Origin: an uncultured Erysipelotrichaceae bacterium | GTDB taxonomy: Bacteria > Bacillota_I > Bacilli_A > RFN20 > CAG-826 | NCBI GenBank assembly: GCA_902801805.1 | Contig: CADCJP010000026.1 | Coordinates: forward strand, 1-9,959 | Direction: 5' to 3' | DNA length: 9,959 nt | Shown: one piece after another, positions 379 through 9,258 of the stretch | How positions within the stretch are numbered: the first letter of the stretch is position 1 | Layout: every line of letters starts with the position of its first letter | Notes under the pieces: generated by a model | The model's input: only the letters and a program-made list of their open reading frames with translations | Told to the model about the DNA's origin: nothing | Databases searched by the model: none | Program-made: the position numbers and the translations under genes

Positions 379-1875
379 CTATTTAAAATATAGTTTGTGC
401 GCGTAACCAACTGGCTCTTCAGTAACATTAATTCCAAGAGCGGTTAAAGTTCTTAAATCTGCGTCAGAAAGGATACATGAGCAGTGTGCTTCTGAACCCT
501 TTAACTTTGGAATTTGTTTAAGCGCTAATTCGGCTAATGGGTTGCTACTTGCTTGAATAGCCAAGGCAATTAAGATTTCTTCACTACGGATACGTGGGTT
601 TTCTTTCTTTAATGGACCAGTTTTTAAATCGGCCATTGGGGTCACCACGTGTGGTGAAATAAGGTGAATACTATCATCAATTTTGCCTAATACTTTTAAT
701 GTATTTAAGAGCATTGCCGCTGGAGCACCTAATAATCTAGAACGCTTACCAGTGATGATCTTGCCGTTAGGAAGTTCAATAGCCACGACTCTTTCTTTAC
801 ATTTATTAGCTTTGTCTAAGCATGCTTTCACTGTTGGTCTATCATCAGTTGTAATGTCTAAAGCGGTCATTAATGATTCTTCTTTGGTAATTGTTTCGTC
901 AGCGAATTTACCTAAGTAGACATTTTTCCTAGCTTGATAGTATCTTCTAATGACTTCTTGTTTACTTGCTTCACAAGCCGCGGCATCGTTAATAATCGCA
1001 AAGCCAACCATATTAACACCCATATCAGTTGGAGATTGATATGGAGAAGAACCATAAATCTTTTCGAATATAGTCTTTAATAATGGGAATGTTTCAATAT
1101 CACGGTTGTAGTTAGTTGTGGTAATGCCATACGCCGCTAAATGGTATGGGTCAATCATATTGACGTCCGCTAAATCAACAGTGGCAGCTTCATAAGCTAA
1201 GTTCACTGGATGTGATAATGGAAGATTCCACACTGGGAATGTTTCATATTTCGCATAACCAGATTTAATACCACGGTTCATGTCATGATATAACTGACTT
1301 AAACAGACCGCCATTTTACCTGAACCAGGACCTGGTGCGGTCACAACGATTAATGGTTTTGTGGTTTCCACATAATCATTCTTTTCAAAGCCATCACTAC
1401 CGAAAACAGAGACGAGGTTATGTGGATAACCCGCGATTGTGTAGTGTTTATAAACTTTAATACCGTTTTTTCTAAGTTTAGTGGCAAATGTTTTTAAGAC
1501 TGGACTTTCTTCATAGAAACAGAAGACCACACTAGAAACATATAAACCCGCTTCTTGATAGGCATCGATTAATCTTTCGACTTCGGATTGATAAGTGATA
1601 CCTAAGTCATTTCTAACTTTGTTAGATTTGATATCGTTCGCGTTGACCGCCATGACGATTTCCGCGTCATCTTTTAATGTTAATAACATTTGAAGTTTTG
1701 AATCTGGTTCAAAACCTGGTAAGACTCTACTAGCATGGAAGTCATCGAATAACTTACCACCAAATTCGAGGTAAAGTTTACCGCCAAAAGATTTAATGCG
1801 TTTTAAAATCTCCTGACGTTGGATTTTCAGATATTTCTTATTATCAAAGGCTATTTTCTTCTTATTCGTCGGCAT
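379..1875 (-). CDS. UPF0371 / DUF1846 family protein
   Basis: This is a 498-residue cytoplasmic protein, the usual full length for UPF0371/DUF1846. Hallmarks are the N-terminal FDNKKYLKIQ segment (about 10-19), KLYLEFGGKLFDDFHASRVL (33-52), a glycine-rich P-loop-like APGPGSGKMA (180-189), and SPTDMGVNMVGF (281-292). No signal peptide or membrane segment is visible. The family is conserved in Firmicutes and actinobacteria, and I know of no established biochemical role. The APGPGSGK loop suggests phosphate or nucleotide binding, which is inference. The ATG at 1875 lies inside the end of the upstream CofE-like gene (14-base overlap), so translation is probably coupled. An in-frame TTG at 1884 would add three residues. 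AAGGA lies 4 bases before the TTG and 13 bases before the ATG, so the start is ambiguous; ATG is preferred as the stronger codon. It is the last gene of the operon. Confidence 0.9.
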   Translation of the reverse strand: MPTNKKKIAFDNKKYLKIQRQEILKRIKSFGGKLYLEFGGKLFDDFHASRVLPGFEPDSKLQMLLTLKDDAEIVMAVNANDIKSNKVRNDLGITYQSEVERLIDAYQEAGLYVSSVVFCFYEESPVLKTFATKLRKNGIKVYKHYTIAGYPHNLVSVFGSDGFEKNDYVETTKPLIVVTAPGPGSGKMAVCLSQLYHDMNRGIKSGYAKYETFPVWNLPLSHPVNLAYEAATVDLADVNMIDPYHLAAYGITTTNYNRDIETFPLLKTIFEKIYGSSPYQSPTDMGVNMVGFAIINDAAACEASKQEVIRRYYQARKNVYLGKFADETITKEESLMTALDITTDDRPTVKACLDKANKCKERVVAIELPNGKIITGKRSRLLGAPAAMLLNTLKVLGKIDDSIHLISPHVVTPMADLKTGPLKKENPRIRSEEILIALAIQASSNPLAELALKQIPKLKGSEAHCSCILSDADLRTLTALGINVTEEPVGYAHKLYFK

Positions 1876-3052
1876 AGTTATCAAAGTATCCTTGAATCAA
1901 GACAACAGGTGTACCTTTATCACCAGAGCCACTTGTTAAGTCACATAATGAGCCTAATAAGTCAGTGATTTGTCTTGGGGTTGTGCCTTCAGAGGCCATC
2001 TTGCCAACGAGGTCTTTTTCTTTAGCCTTAATATCTTCTTTAATCGCATCAGCGAGAGCTTTACCGGTTAAACCTTTATATGCATTGTCCGCTAAATATT
2101 TGAGTTTTAATTCGTTTGGTGTACCTTTTAAGCCCACTGTGTGGAATGGAGAAACAACTGGGTCTGCTAATTCCCAAATCTTACCTTGTGGATCTTTAAA
2201 AGCACCATCGCCATACACCATGACTTCAATGTGCTTACCAGTTTTTTCTAATAAATCAGCTTGCACACCTTCGACGAGAGATTGACCATCTCTTGGGAAT
2301 AATTTCACGGTTTCTTCAGTGGCTTTATTAGTGCCTAATAAGCCATACTTTTCGTTATAACCAGAACCATTAACTGGAGCGGTTAAAATATCATCAAGGG
2401 CTAAAACGAGTTCAGCGCCTTTATCTTTTAATAAACGTTTTGTGGCAAATCTTGTGTGAATGTCACACGTTAAGACTTTCTTAGTGTAATTTAAGATTGC
2501 TTCAGCGCGGTTAGCAAAGATAATCACCGCTTCCGCTCCTTGCTCTTCAATTAACTTTTTATAGTAATCAACATAGTCAACACCAGTGAATTCATGGACT
2601 CTATAACCAAATAATTCACGATATTTTTCTAACGACAAAACATCGCTATATGGATTAATACCTGCTTCATAAACTTGATCAGCGGTAATTAAAGCATTAC
2701 CAACTTCATCACTTGGGTAAGAAAGCATTAAGTAAACTTTCTTCACACCTCTAGCGATACCTTTGAGTAAAATAGCGAATCTATTTCTACTTAAAATAGG
2801 AAAAATGACCGCTAATTCGTCGCCACCGGTTTTCTTTTTAACATCGTCAGCAATATTATCGACTGAGGCGTAATTGCCTTGGCAGCGAGCGACGATACTT
2901 TCGGTGATTGCGACAACATCGCGATCATGGAATTTGAATCCTTCATTTTCTGAGGCTTTTAAAACTGAGTCGACAACGATTTGTCTTAAGTTATCACCAG
3001 TTTTTAATACAGGGAGTCTCACCCCTCTAGATGTCACACCAACACATCTCAT
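1862..3052 (-). CDS. CofE-like protein (coenzyme F420-0:L-glutamate ligase family, long Firmicutes form)
   Basis: This 396-residue protein has an N-terminal segment, VRLPVLKTGDNL (11-22) then FHDRDVVAITESIVARCQGN (41-60), that follows the start of the F420-0:gamma-glutamyl ligase fold. Other conserved-looking stretches are ALDDILTAPVNGSGYNEKYG (218-237) and VMVYGDGAFKDPQGKIWELA (277-296). True CofE adds glutamates to coenzyme F420 using GTP. Archaeal CofE has roughly 250 residues, so this protein carries about 150 extra residues, as Firmicutes homologues commonly do. No other F420 synthesis gene is in the window, so the substrate may be something else (inference). The start at 3052 is set by AGAAGGAGAA about 9 bases upstream. 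The gap to the upstream FAD gene is 16 bases, and the downstream UPF0371 gene overlaps its end, so the three genes are one transcription unit. Family assignment is fairly sure; function is not. Confidence 0.85.
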   Translation of the reverse strand: MRCVGVTSRGVRLPVLKTGDNLRQIVVDSVLKASENEGFKFHDRDVVAITESIVARCQGNYASVDNIADDVKKKTGGDELAVIFPILSRNRFAILLKGIARGVKKVYLMLSYPSDEVGNALITADQVYEAGINPYSDVLSLEKYRELFGYRVHEFTGVDYVDYYKKLIEEQGAEAVIIFANRAEAILNYTKKVLTCDIHTRFATKRLLKDKGAELVLALDDILTAPVNGSGYNEKYGLLGTNKATEETVKLFPRDGQSLVEGVQADLLEKTGKHIEVMVYGDGAFKDPQGKIWELADPVVSPFHTVGLKGTPNELKLKYLADNAYKGLTGKALADAIKEDIKAKEKDLVGKMASEGTTPRQITDLLGSLCDLTSGSGDKGTPVVLIQGYFDNYADE

Positions 3053-5892: not shown

Positions 5893-6822
5893 TTAGAAGT
5901 TTTCGTCAATGTACTTAGCAATGATTGGCGCTAAGGAGACAATACTGACGACGTCTTCTTCTTGTGGGATAGAATCGCTAATAGCGATGTCTAAGATGCC
6001 ACATCTATATAGTTTCGCGAGGGCATTCTTTGAGAAGATACCATGGCAAGCACAGATTAAGATACCTTTTGCTTCATTTTTGAGAAGTTCTTTACTCGCG
6101 GCAATAATTGTGCCACCAGTATCGATGATATCATCAATCATCAAACAGTATTTGTCCTCAACTGGTTCACCTTTAATGTTAGTAATAACGGCCTTATTTG
6201 GTTCAGGACGGTATTTATTTAACACTGCGATTGGTAAATCACCTAAATCTTTAGATAAATGTTTTGCTCTTTCGAGGCCGCCTTTGTCTGGAGAAACGAT
6301 GACGACGTCCTCAAGCTTAACTTTTAATGTTTTTAAGCGTTTACGGTAATAATCAGCAAACACTGATGAGGAATATAATTCCACCGCTTCCATGTTTTCG
6401 AAGTATGGTTGCATTGAACCACTGTGGTAATCAACAGATACAACTCTGTTACATCCAGCTTCTCTTAAGCAATTAGCGACTAATTTCGCACTAATTGGAT
6501 CGCCGAAATCGATTGTTCTGTCTTGTCTCACATATCCAAAATATGGAATGATCGCGGTAATGGTTTTAGCTTCACCTCTCTTAAGAGCATCGATGAAGAT
6601 CAATAATTCCATTAATCTGTCGTTAACTGGGTTACAGGTTGAATGAATAACAATGCAATCCTTACCTCTTACGTCAACGTTTGGTCTGGTAAAAATTTCA
6701 TTATCTGCGAATCTTCTGCAGATAGATGGTGCTTTTTCCACACCGAGTTCTTCACACACCCTGTACGCTAGTTCTTCACAGGATGTTAAAGAGAATACTA
6801 ATACTTGTTCTTTATTTGTCAT
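5893..6822 (-). CDS. prs: Ribose-phosphate pyrophosphokinase (PRPP synthetase)
   Basis: This 309-residue cytoplasmic enzyme makes PRPP from ribose 5-phosphate and ATP. The family pattern is clear throughout: RRFADNEIF (36-44), NPVNDRLMELLIFIDALKR (64-82), IPYFGYVRQDR (92-102), DPISAKL (108-114), VSPDKGG (176-182), and the PRPP loop MIDDIIDTGGTI (228-239). The catalytic flexible loop reads NKYRPEPN (202-209): Lys203 and Arg205 are kept, while the usual middle Arg is Tyr. The usual VDLHAxQIQGFF motif reads VDYHSGSMQPYF (130-141), keeping the His but otherwise divergent. The start at 6822 follows AGAGGG about 10 bases upstream; a longer frame would need a TTG at 6867. It lies 57 bases after upp with no terminator between, so it is probably cotranscribed and supplies the cosubstrate for Upp and Apt. 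Confidence 0.95.
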   Translation of the reverse strand: MTNKEQVLVFSLTSCEELAYRVCEELGVEKAPSICRRFADNEIFTRPNVDVRGKDCIVIHSTCNPVNDRLMELLIFIDALKRGEAKTITAIIPYFGYVRQDRTIDFGDPISAKLVANCLREAGCNRVVSVDYHSGSMQPYFENMEAVELYSSSVFADYYRKRLKTLKVKLEDVVIVSPDKGGLERAKHLSKDLGDLPIAVLNKYRPEPNKAVITNIKGEPVEDKYCLMIDDIIDTGGTIIAASKELLKNEAKGILICACHGIFSKNALAKLYRCGILDIAISDSIPQEEDVVSIVSLAPIIAKYIDENF

Positions 6823-6879: not shown

Positions 6880-7554
6880 TTAAATAATAGGTCTATCTTC
6901 GGTTGTACCGTTTGTTGTGCCGAATGTTCTATCACCACAGTCACCTAAGCCTGGGCAGATATAAGCATTTTCGTTTAAACAACGGTCAAGGGCACCAATG
7001 TAAACTGGAATATCTGGATATTTTTTCACAAATGCTTCCACGCCTTCTGGTGCAGCGATAATGCAGACGAAGGTAATCTTTTTAGCACCATGCTTTTTGA
7101 GCATACCCACCGCATCAATAGCGGAGCCGCCTGTAGCGAGCATTGGGTCGACTAAATAGACGTCTTTTTCTGAAATATCCGCTGGTAATTTACAGTAGTA
7201 TTCAACTGGTTTCTTGGTGACTTCGTCACGATAGAGACCGATGTGACCACATGTACATCCAGGAAGTAAATCAAGCATTCCATCGGCCATACCTAATCCA
7301 GCACGAAGAATTGGGACGAAGCAAAGAGCTTTACGTTTGACAACTGGTTGAATTGTCTTTTCAATTGGTGTTTCAATTTCCACCATTTGAGTTTCAGCGT
7401 TTCTTAATGCTTCATATCCTTCCAAAACGGATATTTCTTTAACAAGCATTTTGAATTCACTAGTTTTAGTTGTCTTATCTCTAAGCTTTGTAATTTTGTG
7501 CTTGATCAATGGATGGTCAAGAATGTGGACTGTTGGATAATTTTCAAAAGCCAT
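6880..7554 (-). CDS. upp: Uracil phosphoribosyltransferase
   Basis: This 224-residue cytoplasmic enzyme converts uracil and PRPP to UMP. It has the family's VPILRAGLGM (80-89), the PRPP-binding loop VDPMLATGGSA (135-145), and the uracil-binding C-terminal motif ICPGLGDCGDRTFGT (199-213). In most relatives this last motif is IVPGLGDAGDR, so two small residues are Cys here. An 11-residue tail (TNGTTEDRPII, 214-224) extends past the point where many family members of about 208 residues end. The start at 7554 follows GAGGA seven bases upstream. That ribosome binding site lies in the 14-base gap after the permease stop codon, indicating coupled translation from one mRNA. Its product traps uracil brought in by the permease. 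Confidence 0.97.
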   Translation of the reverse strand: MAFENYPTVHILDHPLIKHKITKLRDKTTKTSEFKMLVKEISVLEGYEALRNAETQMVEIETPIEKTIQPVVKRKALCFVPILRAGLGMADGMLDLLPGCTCGHIGLYRDEVTKKPVEYYCKLPADISEKDVYLVDPMLATGGSAIDAVGMLKKHGAKKITFVCIIAAPEGVEAFVKKYPDIPVYIGALDRCLNENAYICPGLGDCGDRTFGTTNGTTEDRPII

Positions 7555-7568
7555 TATCTAATCCTCAA

Positions 7569-9068
7569 CTATTTTTCTTCGGAAGCTGCTTCTTGTTCTT
7601 CGTCATTGCTATTTCTTCTGAAGAGACGGACAAAGACGTTAACAAGGATGCCAAGGATTAAGGCACATGCAACTTCAGTAAGGGTGACTTTGCCGATTGT
7701 GAGGCTGAGACCACCGATACCTGCAATAAGTATAACACTAACCACGAAGAGATTTCTATTATCACCTAAATCAGAACCTTGAATCATCTTTAAGCCGGAG
7801 ACTGCGATGAAGCCGTATAAAGCGATACAGACACCACCCATGACACAGCTTGGGATTGTGGCTAAGAAGGTTGAGAATGGAGCGATGAATGATAAGACGA
7901 TAGCCATGAACGCTGTCACAATGATTGTTCTGATGGAAGCGTTACCGGAAATCGCAACTGTACCAACGGATTCACCATATGTTGTATTTGGGCAGCCGCC
8001 GAAGAAGGCGCCAGCCATGGAACCAACACCATCACCGAGTAATGTTCTGTGTAAGCCTGGTTCATTTAATAAATCTCTATCAATGATGGAGCTTAAGTTC
8101 TTGTGGTCAGCAATGTGTTCAGCGAAGACGACGAATGCGACTGGGACATAAGCAACTGCGACGGAACCAAAGTAAGCGAAGAATTCACCAGCGTTTGCGA
8201 AATCTTTGAAGCCATTGAACGCTTCAATGAAGGTGAATTTTGGTAACCATTGCATATTTTGGAATAAGCTGAAGTTGATAACTTTTAACGCATCATTGTT
8301 GGCGGCATAACCGATACCTGTGAATAATGCGGCAACGGCATAACCAGCCAAGATACCAATGATGAATGGAATCATCTTCATGAATTTCTTAGCATAAACG
8401 GAAACGAGGATTGTGGTGAATAATGTCACTAAGCCACAGAGTAAGGCGATCCACATATTTGTGGAAACGACTGTTGTGTTGTATGTGGCATAGAAATTAC
8501 CATCTAAAAGATCGATTGAACTAATGAGGCTATCACCTAAGTTAGCAACACCATCAGCGTTTAAGACTTCTGATGCAACGGCTGGGATGTAGTGAGAACC
8601 ACTTAATAAATCACCGACAGCGTTACCTGCTAATGATAAACCGATGATAGCGACTGTTGGGCCGATAACAACGGCTGGCATTAATTTATTGATCCATCTT
8701 GTACCAACGAATTTAACAATGAGAGCGATGATGACATAGACTAAGCCAGCTAAGATAGCACCAAGGATAATACCTAAGTAACCACCAGCGGCACTAGCAG
8801 CACCACCGAAAGCCGCAAACATGGAACCGATGAATGCGAATGAACTGCCTAAGAAGACAGGTGATTTGAATTTTGTGAATAATAAGTAAACCAATGTACC
8901 AACACCAGCACCGAATAAAGCTGCGGATTGGCTCATGCCGTGACCAATAATTGCTGGAACTGCGATTGTAGCAGCAAGAATGGCTAATAATTGTTGTAAT
9001 GCGAAGACAAAGGTTTTACCCCAACTTGGCTTATCTTCTACATTGTAGATTAAGTTTGTTTTTGCCAT
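7569..9068 (-). CDS. uraA: Uracil permease (NCS2 / nucleobase:cation symporter family)
   Basis: This 499-residue inner-membrane transporter has about 12-14 hydrophobic segments. Family motifs include FALQQLLAILAATIAVPAI (22-40) and FVVFAEHIADH (312-322), in which Glu317 aligns with the substrate-binding Glu of TM8. GGCPNTTYGESVG (357-369) has Glu366 at the TM10 substrate site, and PNTTYGE is typical of uracil rather than xanthine carriers. It is about 70 residues longer than Escherichia coli UraA. The extra length is mainly a polar loop at about 152-205, another at about 255-295, and an acidic C-terminal tail. It should import uracil with a cation, probably protons. The start at 9068 is set by AAAGGAG about 7 bases upstream; an upstream in-frame start would fall in the leader terminator region. 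It is first in the operon with upp and prs and is preceded by a leader peptide and attenuator. Confidence 0.95.
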   Translation of the reverse strand: MAKTNLIYNVEDKPSWGKTFVFALQQLLAILAATIAVPAIIGHGMSQSAALFGAGVGTLVYLLFTKFKSPVFLGSSFAFIGSMFAAFGGAASAAGGYLGIILGAILAGLVYVIIALIVKFVGTRWINKLMPAVVIGPTVAIIGLSLAGNAVGDLLSGSHYIPAVASEVLNADGVANLGDSLISSIDLLDGNFYATYNTTVVSTNMWIALLCGLVTLFTTILVSVYAKKFMKMIPFIIGILAGYAVAALFTGIGYAANNDALKVINFSLFQNMQWLPKFTFIEAFNGFKDFANAGEFFAYFGSVAVAYVPVAFVVFAEHIADHKNLSSIIDRDLLNEPGLHRTLLGDGVGSMAGAFFGGCPNTTYGESVGTVAISGNASIRTIIVTAFMAIVLSFIAPFSTFLATIPSCVMGGVCIALYGFIAVSGLKMIQGSDLGDNRNLFVVSVILIAGIGGLSLTIGKVTLTEVACALILGILVNVFVRLFRRNSNDEEQEAASEEK

Positions 9069-9087: not shown

Positions 9088-9118
9088 AAAAAAAATCACC
9101 CGACAATAAGGGGTGACT
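9088..9118 (-). terminator. Leader terminator (attenuator) in front of the uracil permease gene
   Basis: On the minus strand AGTCACCC (9118-9111) pairs with GGGTGATT (9101-9094), giving 8 bp with one G-U wobble around a 9-base loop. Eight uninterrupted Ts follow (9095-9088, the first two shared with the stem base). It lies after the operon promoter but before the permease ribosome binding site, so it can only reduce read-through into uraA-upp-prs. The stop codon of the leader peptide (9119-9117) overlaps the stem base, so a ribosome finishing the peptide would cover the 5' arm and block the hairpin. Confidence 0.9.
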
Positions 9119-9212
9119 ACAAACAGACAGGAATAGCGAATGAGAGGGAATTTTGAGGGAAGAAACCCCCTAATGCAGATGGGTTCTTACACTTTCTAAT
9201 TCGTCTCTTCAT
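9117..9212 (-). CDS. Leader peptide of the uracil permease operon (31 residues, putative UTP-sensing attenuation)
   Basis: An open frame of 31 codons begins with ATG at 9212 and ends with TAG at 9119-9117. AAAGGA lies five bases before the ATG, a good ribosome binding site. The peptide starts MKRRIRKCKNPSALGG and ends FAIPVCL. It has no signal peptide and no known domain. It is basic at the N-terminus and not dominated by any one amino acid, unlike his, trp or ilv leaders. From codon 16 onward the RNA is strongly pyrimidine-rich: in the 48 bases from 9167 to 9120, 36 are pyrimidines and 21 are U. The stop codon lies in the base of the attenuator stem. This matches the pyrBI scheme of enteric bacteria: low UTP slows polymerase in the U-rich tract, the ribosome catches up and the terminator cannot form. 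The reading frame and signals are seen; the mechanism is inferred. Confidence 0.7.
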   Translation of the reverse strand: MKRRIRKCKNPSALGGFFPQNSLSFAIPVCL

Positions 9213-9230
9213 AGGAATCCTTTGCCTAAA

Positions 9231-9258
9231 ACTTTATCACATGCATATGATATTGCAA
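9231..9258 (-). promoter_or_regulatory. Promoter of the leader peptide - uraA - upp - prs operon
   Basis: On the minus strand TTGCAA (9258-9253) and TAAAGT (9236-9231) are 16 bases apart, and the -10 is preceded by TG one base upstream (extended -10). The start would be near 9225, leaving only about 12-15 bases before the leader ATG at 9212, just enough to hold the AAAGGA site. Each hexamer matches the consensus at four of six positions, so the call also relies on the context. Confidence 0.5.

Follow-up and report, generated by a model that had tools for sequence, protein, structure and literature searches.

A short reading frame ending on a terminator stem precedes a uracil-salvage operon in an uncultured Erysipelotrichaceae bacterium: a conserved leader and candidate UTP-sensing attenuator

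Pyrimidine control in Bacillota is usually PyrR control. A locus of an uncultured Erysipelotrichaceae bacterium (contig CADCJP010000026.1, assembly GCA_902801805.1) raises the question of whether a premature terminator before uracil-salvage genes in this phylum may instead be governed by a ribosome that translates a short leader peptide. We analysed the whole stretch of 9,959 nucleotides, here called the window, in which the leader stands on the minus strand before uraA-upp-prs, a pyrimidine operon that it would control. The features of the leader and the operon are as follows.

9231 to 9258, minus strand: predicted promoter, with -35 TTGCAA at 9258-9253, a 16-nt spacer and an extended -10 TGA-TAAAGT at 9239-9231
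9218 to 9223, minus strand: Shine-Dalgarno (SD) sequence AAAGGA of the leader open reading frame (ORF), as read in the sequence
9117 to 9212, minus strand: leader ORF of 31 codons plus TAG, MKRRIRKCKNPSALGGFFPQNSLSFAIPVCL, open in 14 of 14 leaders compared, with a coding signature over codons 2-19
9155 to 9170, minus strand: small hairpin GGGGG-UUUCUU-CCCUC directly before the tract, a possible pause hairpin
9120 to 9167, minus strand: pyrimidine-rich tract, the 48 nt before the stop, with 36 pyrimidines (21 of them U); its first bases overlap the hairpin
9117 to 9119, minus strand: TAG stop codon at the foot of the terminator stem, beginning 1 nt before the stem and overlapping it by two bases
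9088 to 9118, minus strand: intrinsic terminator, with an 8-bp stem at 9118-9094 and a run of eight U at 9095-9088
7569 to 9068, minus strand: uraA, uracil permease of the NCS2 family (PF00860), with its ATG at 9068
6880 to 7554, minus strand: upp, uracil phosphoribosyltransferase, by family match (PF14681)
5893 to 6822, minus strand: prs, ribose-phosphate pyrophosphokinase, by family match (PF13793), its start ATG predicted from the ORF list

The initial annotation of this DNA had described a promoter, a 31-codon ORF, a tract with 36 pyrimidines in 48 bases and a stop codon at the base of an 8-bp terminator, and its coordinates and counts are right. It had also given the terminator eight terminal Us; the run of eight is present, but two of these lie within the stem, so that six are left. 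The stem (AGUCACCC/GGGUGAUU) has 8 pairs and a 9-nt loop at -9.5 kcal/mol, and a terminator scan with a loop limit of 8 reported none in the region. Transcription is expected to start near 9226-9223 from a promoter that is largely kept across the genus alignment described below, and that is not among the listed matches of a consensus promoter scan. The complete leader folds in an unremarkable way (z -0.66), and its structure by itself would therefore not prove an attenuator. Elsewhere in the window, two neighbouring genes at 379-3052 run in the same direction, one for an F420 ligase-family protein (PF01996) and the other for a DUF1846 protein.

Comparison with relatives indicates that this arrangement has been maintained within the genus. 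The nearest relative by UraA, G061, shares with the window 82% of identity in UraA, 98% in Upp, 96% in Prs and 97% in Apt, and the 16 genomes of its genus, which do not include the window's own, served as the comparison set. The leader DNA is matched in 13 of these genomes, in G118 and G097 only in pieces. Seven near relatives share 84-89% of their leader DNA with the window. G143, G137 and G155 gave just distant permease matches in the family search; genome completeness is not given, which makes these absences soft. The genus alignment holds 14 leaders, that of the window and those of 13 relatives. Read from the aligned ATG, the frame has 30-31 codons in 13 of the 14 leaders and 33 in G118, and the other two frames hold stops in every leader except frame 2 of G247. 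The stop lies at -1 or -5 from the stem, again in 13 of 14. The position of the terminator had entered the rule by which the ORFs were first picked, and a second reading that started at the aligned ATG and ignored the terminator gave the same result. The arms of the terminator change together, from UCACCC/GGGUGA in the near clade to GACUCG/CGAGUC in G149 and G247, GACCUG/CAGGUC in G004 and GACCC/GGGUC in G038, G118 and G097. The exception in stop position is G118, where the stop lies inside the hairpin (+10) and the permease ORF behind the leader has only 144 codons (L162, about 1666-2098, turned to the leader strand). The sole leader that breaks the rule thus precedes a truncated permease, although a single case of this kind may reflect an error of assembly. 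The SD sequence is weaker in the more distant genus members (AAAGAA or similar), and we count this against the explanation that we prefer. The small hairpin forms 4-6 of 6 tested pairs in each of the 14 leaders, and the genus alignment holds no compensatory pairs in it, which leaves its support weak. In the same family, outside this 16-genome genus, L112 and L113 (G077 and G056) carry 32-codon uraA leaders whose stop lies at +7 in the stem. The apt-side flank in G061 contains a purine riboswitch above the gathering score (L091, 4005-4102).

The pattern of substitutions argues that the front part of the frame is read as protein. Over codons 2-19, pN/pS is 0.51 in 13 leaders (G118 left out), a value as low as which occurred in 1 of 400 column permutations, and 0.34 in the 8-member near clade (9 of 400). 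Over codons 2-12 it is 0.43 in the 13 leaders (0 of 400) and 0.48 in the near clade, where 74 of 400 permutations were as low; the latter is not significant and is counted against us. Shifted frames over codons 1-19 of the near clade give 1.17 and 3.45. Codons 20-31 have a pN/pS of 1.23 (8-member near clade only), indistinguishable from permuted columns, and the peptides of the genus members end variously in CL, LIC, VK, VC, VI, IC or TP. These last codons drift and do not form the conserved C-terminal peptide of an arrest peptide, though Cys recurs, as 11 of 14 genus leaders have it at the last or the last but one codon. At the level of bases, the last 48 nt hold 31-38 pyrimidines in all 14 leaders. 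By this comparison, a frame open in 14 of 14 leaders with a coding signature over codons 2-19 points to a translated leader, in which the front part evolves as coding sequence and the part over the tract keeps its pyrimidines but not its amino acids. The initial annotation had proposed to check whether relatives keep the frame, the tract and the stop on the stem while the peptide drifts. The leader ORF is conserved with these three properties, its stop being at the terminator base in all but one leader read from the aligned ATG, but the drift is confined to the tract, and codons 2-19 are constrained.

Leaders of this design are also found at uraA genes outside the genus. Our survey covered the 211 best-scoring uraA loci, which are not a random sample; 210 were usable and gave 187 distinct upstream regions after removal of duplicates, 80 with a terminator by rule and 107 without one. 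We counted as a leader any SD-preceded ATG ORF of 18-45 codons that ends from -8 to +2 nt from the stem. Eighteen of the 80 terminator-bearing regions fit this rule, compared with 0.37 +/- 0.60 expected from dinucleotide shuffles. They comprise eight genus members, nine leaders from outside the genus and L127, which is probably a spurious hit on the end of a gene lying upstream, given that neighbouring species have tails like it. Two leaders of the genus set, L095 (G149) and L108 (G038), are missed by the rule and have no listed SD string before the ATG, and several similar uraA leaders fail its strict form and were left uncounted, namely L001 (+9), L025 (+14), L112 and L113 (both +7) and L070 (-13). 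Among the nine outside leaders, L015, L044, L067 and L124 belong to one order, L054 and L214 to a second and L080 to a third, with L003 and L035 making up the nine; judged from non-overlapping sets of genome handles, they span at least three orders besides the family of the window. The nine share the design and not the sequence. Their peptides have no similarity visible by eye, and their ends are rich in U and C, with 30-36 pyrimidines in the last 48 nt (Y48). Both the lack of shared sequence and the origin of four of them in one order count against the explanation that we prefer. Horizontal spread of uraA together with its leader is possible, and the outside leaders are not proven to be independent origins.

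The composition of the tract and the rarity of the design can be set against a background of 640 terminators, in which the uraA leaders themselves are included. In 23 leaders (14 from the genus and 9 from outside), Y48 averages 34.6 against a background of 23.0 (s.d. 4.9). The number of U in the same 48 nt is 22.6 against 12.6 and that of C 12.0 against 10.4, so that U is enriched more than C. On the other side of the account, 9.7% of background terminators reach a Y48 of 30, the lowest value outside the genus (L003). An ORF comparable to the leaders (15-45 codons) accompanies 15 of the 640 background terminators, uraA leaders included. In 400 kb of genus DNA from G061, G149, G125 and G082, 1 of 160 terminators has an intergenic SD-preceded ATG ORF at its base, and this one belongs to uraA of G061; in G149, G125 and G082 the sampled stretches do not reach the uraA leader.

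Another finding of the comparison is that the leader is conserved where the permease behind it is not. G125 shares with the window 94% of identity in Apt, 98% in Upp, 97% in Prs (part) and 89% in leader DNA, but 48% in UraA, and UraA identity is similarly low in G110 (53%) and G131 (49%). Over these three relatives (L107 of G110, L111/L151 of G125 and L119 of G131, compared with window 7569-9068), UraA ranges over 48-53%, Apt over 94-96%, leader DNA over 84-89% and Upp over 85-98%. Along the G125 locus, base identity is 87% over the leader, 60-72% over most of uraA, 54% at the end of uraA and 95-96% in upp. In the five near relatives measured, identity is 57-76% in the spacer that separates apt from the leader, compared with 84-87% for the leader. 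These alignments suggest that the permease has been replaced in place, or is diverging very fast, behind a retained leader.

The family model for PyrR passes its cut-off in 2 of the 16 genus genomes, G038 and G097 (the window's own genome was not included, and completeness is not given), and in 2 of 13 genomes reached through the loci, G003 and G005 (G243 of L124 and G436 of L214 were not included). A covariance model of the PyrR box, R1, was built from 20 relatives and also detects boxes outside its training set (L036, L016, L027 and L130). With R1, neither the window nor 12 of 13 genus loci give any match up to E = 10; in L163 and in five loci from outside the genus the matches are at chance level alone (E >= 3), away from the leaders. 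When at most 150 candidates per genus genome were scored, boxes were found exactly in G038 and G097, where they adjoin PyrR and a second gene for a permease. In these two genomes (L191 2714-4904 in G038; L276 in G097) the second permease, a PyrR box and a divergent pyrR stand together, and the copy with the peptide leader lies elsewhere in the genome. G003 likewise encodes PyrR and combines a PyrR box at the pyr operon with a peptide leader at uraA. Both types of control thus coexist in the same genomes, and the leader does not need PyrR. These results agree with the initial annotation, which had seen no PyrR loop at the leader. The genome search for pyrR that it had proposed showed PyrR to be scarce in the genus, the two genomes mentioned carrying it at the second permease. 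It had also considered a riboswitch or PyrR site that would explain the terminator; no Rfam family reaches its gathering score in the window, which is a weak negative, as Rfam also missed the PyrR boxes of relatives. The best weak Rfam match, GcvB, scored 23 bits with a cut-off of 42 and was treated as chance, and regular expressions for PyrR boxes proved too strict (none of the 187 regions with the first, 7 with the second) and were not used.

The model for aspartate carbamoyltransferase passes in 0 of the 16 genus genomes and in 14 of 14 control genomes; ten of the 16 give weaker matches of 124-136 bits with a cut-off of 237, which we take for the related ornithine enzyme. With no aspartate carbamoyltransferase over the cut-off, salvage is the expected source of pyrimidines, and judging by this one enzyme de novo pyrimidine synthesis would be absent from the genus. 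Of the 13 other genomes, G003 and G013 pass. The pyr synthesis operon of G013 (L189 7750-7840), a genome with no PyrR over the cut-off, has a promoter and, some 40 nt beyond the start expected from it, a terminator, and its leader holds no ORF of the leader design and no PyrR-box match; as the sole PyrR-less synthesis operon examined, it is counted against our preferred explanation.

Taken together, a conserved translated attenuator of the uracil-salvage operon is very probably real, to judge from these comparisons, and we consider it fairly probable that it is a ribosome-coupled attenuator that senses UTP. The leader combines a terminator that a ribosome could mask, a U-rich tract, an ORF of the translated type and a pyrimidine operon presumably under its control, and the comparison supports the ORF, the holding of the stop on the terminator base, the keeping of the tract and the dispensability of PyrR. 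Polymerase pausing, coupling in the source organism and UTP as the signal are what we infer, the UTP part because the tract and the target operon point to it and PyrR is lacking. According to this mechanism, the pyrimidine pool, most likely UTP, would be sensed by how fast RNA polymerase moves relative to the first ribosome. With ample UTP, the polymerase would cross the U/C tract fast, and the hairpin would form ahead of the ribosome and terminate transcription near 9088. When UTP is low, the polymerase would slow in the tract, perhaps helped by the small upstream hairpin, and the ribosome would close up; on the last codons or the stop codon it would cover the 5' arm of the terminator, so that uraA-upp-prs is transcribed. 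A ribosome at a stop codon covers about a dozen nt downstream, and the 5' arm would thus be hidden completely. For E. coli, the lambda tR2 terminator placed a few bp after a stop codon is reported to be almost fully repressed, with maximum activity beyond about 30 bp (PMC4824070).

This mechanism requires coupling. B. subtilis, also a member of Bacillota, is described as mostly uncoupled, with terminators just a few nt after stop codons (PMC7858274), and this is counted against our mechanism. At gene ends, the spacing from stop to stem has a median of 19 nt in the genus, with 21 of 87 below 12 nt, compared with a median of 22 nt in 150 kb of E. coli, with 2 of 17 below 12 nt; in these small samples, which include none from B. 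subtilis, the difference is not significant, so that there is no clear pattern of runaway transcription and coupling is not proven. The pyrimidine tract could also be kept for reasons other than pausing.

Several other explanations have to be weighed against a UTP sensor. One of them accepts that the ORF is translated and that the ribosome blocks the terminator, but takes the signal to be translation capacity or growth state, the tract serving only to prevent structure in the region. It requires the same anatomy, and it can appeal to the fact that a pyrimidine tract cannot pair with itself, so that composition would be no proof of pausing. However, U (22.6 against 12.6) is enriched more than C (12.0 against 10.4), and a pyrimidine signal, rather than a global one, is the better match to the occurrence of the design at uraA and at no other of the 160 terminators sampled in 400 kb from the genus. 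We leave this explanation a small but real chance. The constraint on codons 2-19 and the recurrent Cys near the end of the genus peptides would instead suit a sensor in the nascent peptide, of the kind of the arrest-peptide families TnaC and SpeFL, in which a stall at the stop codon, caused by uracil or UMP, say, masks the terminator; for a ribosome detained at termination, the stop is suitably placed. But the last 12 codons, which would lie near the peptidyl-transferase centre, are precisely those that drift in the near clade, with varying ends, and the nine peptides outside the genus have no resemblance to the genus peptide that the eye can see, so that a nascent-peptide sensor is distinctly unlikely. 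Ordinary chance, an ORF that happens to end on a terminator, draws on the commonness of short ORFs, seen in the 15 of 640 background terminators (uraA leaders included) that pass a similar rule; conservation, stop position, shuffle statistics, the specificity of 1 in 160 and the coding signature together contradict it and leave it a negligible probability.

An amino-acid attenuator of the trp or his type would work by pairing, since a ribosome held up by codons in short supply would free UUAGGGGGU to pair with ACCCCUUA of the terminator. In the window there is in fact a 7-pair alternative between the hairpin arm and the terminator arm, and this pairing is strong there (-16.0 kcal/mol, z -3.0), in G125 (-16.9, z -3.8) and in G110 (-16.1, z -2.9), so that another mode of switching is possible in the window. 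We looked for a conserved antiterminator pairing on this basis and rejected it, as it is strong in these three only and neither covaries nor is conserved: across the genus, matched pairs average -11.9 kcal/mol and mismatched ones -12.4, and the lowest z among 14 loci outside the genus is -1.8. RNAalifold on the genus alignment returned the small hairpin only, the terminator arms being out of register in that alignment. No codon run shared by the leaders was seen, the tails outside the genus use Ser UCN 32 times and AGY 5 times, as base composition predicts, and uracil uptake is hardly a process that an amino acid would be expected to signal; we regard this type of attenuation as very unlikely. 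Control of the terminator by PyrR, another RNA-binding protein or a riboswitch has precedent in other Bacillota uraA genes, those of relatives included, which have PyrR boxes. It is most unlikely here, given that R1 draws a blank in the window and in all but one of the genus loci, that PyrR and its box occur in the same two of 16 genomes beside a second permease, and that Rfam gives its weak negative for the window. Among these explanations the UTP-sensing, ribosome-coupled attenuator remains the one that we prefer.

Known systems resemble the leader in different respects. The PyrR-controlled uraA and pyr attenuators of Bacillota also place before uraA a premature terminator that answers pyrimidine supply, as reported for pneumococcal uraA (PMC6212727), but they need PyrR and an RNA loop, and no loop was found in the leader here. 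The leader of hisS/hisZ in Firmicutes (Naville and Gautheret 2010) is likewise a leader-peptide attenuator in Bacillota; in contrast to ours, it has histidine codons and senses an amino acid, and the words uracil and uraA are absent from the main text of that article (PMC2965389). A pyrimidine attenuator of the leader-peptide type in Bacillota is not described in the literature covered, which mostly excludes subscription papers and so does not establish absence from print. The initial annotation had called the layout pyrBI-like. E. coli pyrBI, with its leader pyrL, does share a short U-rich leader ORF, an intrinsic terminator, a pyrimidine operon and readout by coupling (PMC3641672 and PMC7818426), and the likeness stands for the translated type of leader, the pyrimidine tract and a terminator that a ribosome could mask. 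It fails in the ORF, since the 44 codons of pyrL continue across the terminator to within 3 nt of pyrB, whereas the leader here has 31 codons, stops on the base of the stem and thus does not run through the terminator as the pyrBI frame strictly does. Host phylum and target differ as well, synthesis there and uptake here; the likeness drawn is one of design. In both pyrBI and pyrE of E. coli, the UTP-dependent speed of the polymerase decides whether the ribosome arrives in time, according to PMC7818426 and PMC3641672. E. coli pyrE, which lies behind rph, is UTP-controlled and has a frame that ends before the terminator, so that the finishing ribosome can mask it (PMC7818426). What is translated before pyrE is the rph gene, in contrast to the small ORF dedicated to this role here. 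The truncated rph annotated in MG1655 ends about 36 nt short of the stem of the pyrE attenuator. The wild-type rph ends close to that stem. The geometry of the leader is therefore closer to that of E. coli pyrE than to that of pyrBI.

What is new is a pyrE-like geometry with a dedicated small ORF, in Bacillota, and for uptake rather than synthesis. That several lineages of Bacillota have a coupling-dependent, protein-free UTP attenuator before uracil-salvage genes, probably independent of that in enterics, has in our judgement an even chance of being right. If so, the leader would be a self-standing cassette, kept while the permease behind it is replaced by divergent versions. For the mechanism proposed, a ribosome has to follow RNA polymerase closely, in a genus with PyrR in only 2 of 16 genomes, and coupling would then work in these Bacillota, unlike in B. 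subtilis. With B. subtilis reported as mostly uncoupled, such leaders offer a direct test of coupling elsewhere in the phylum.
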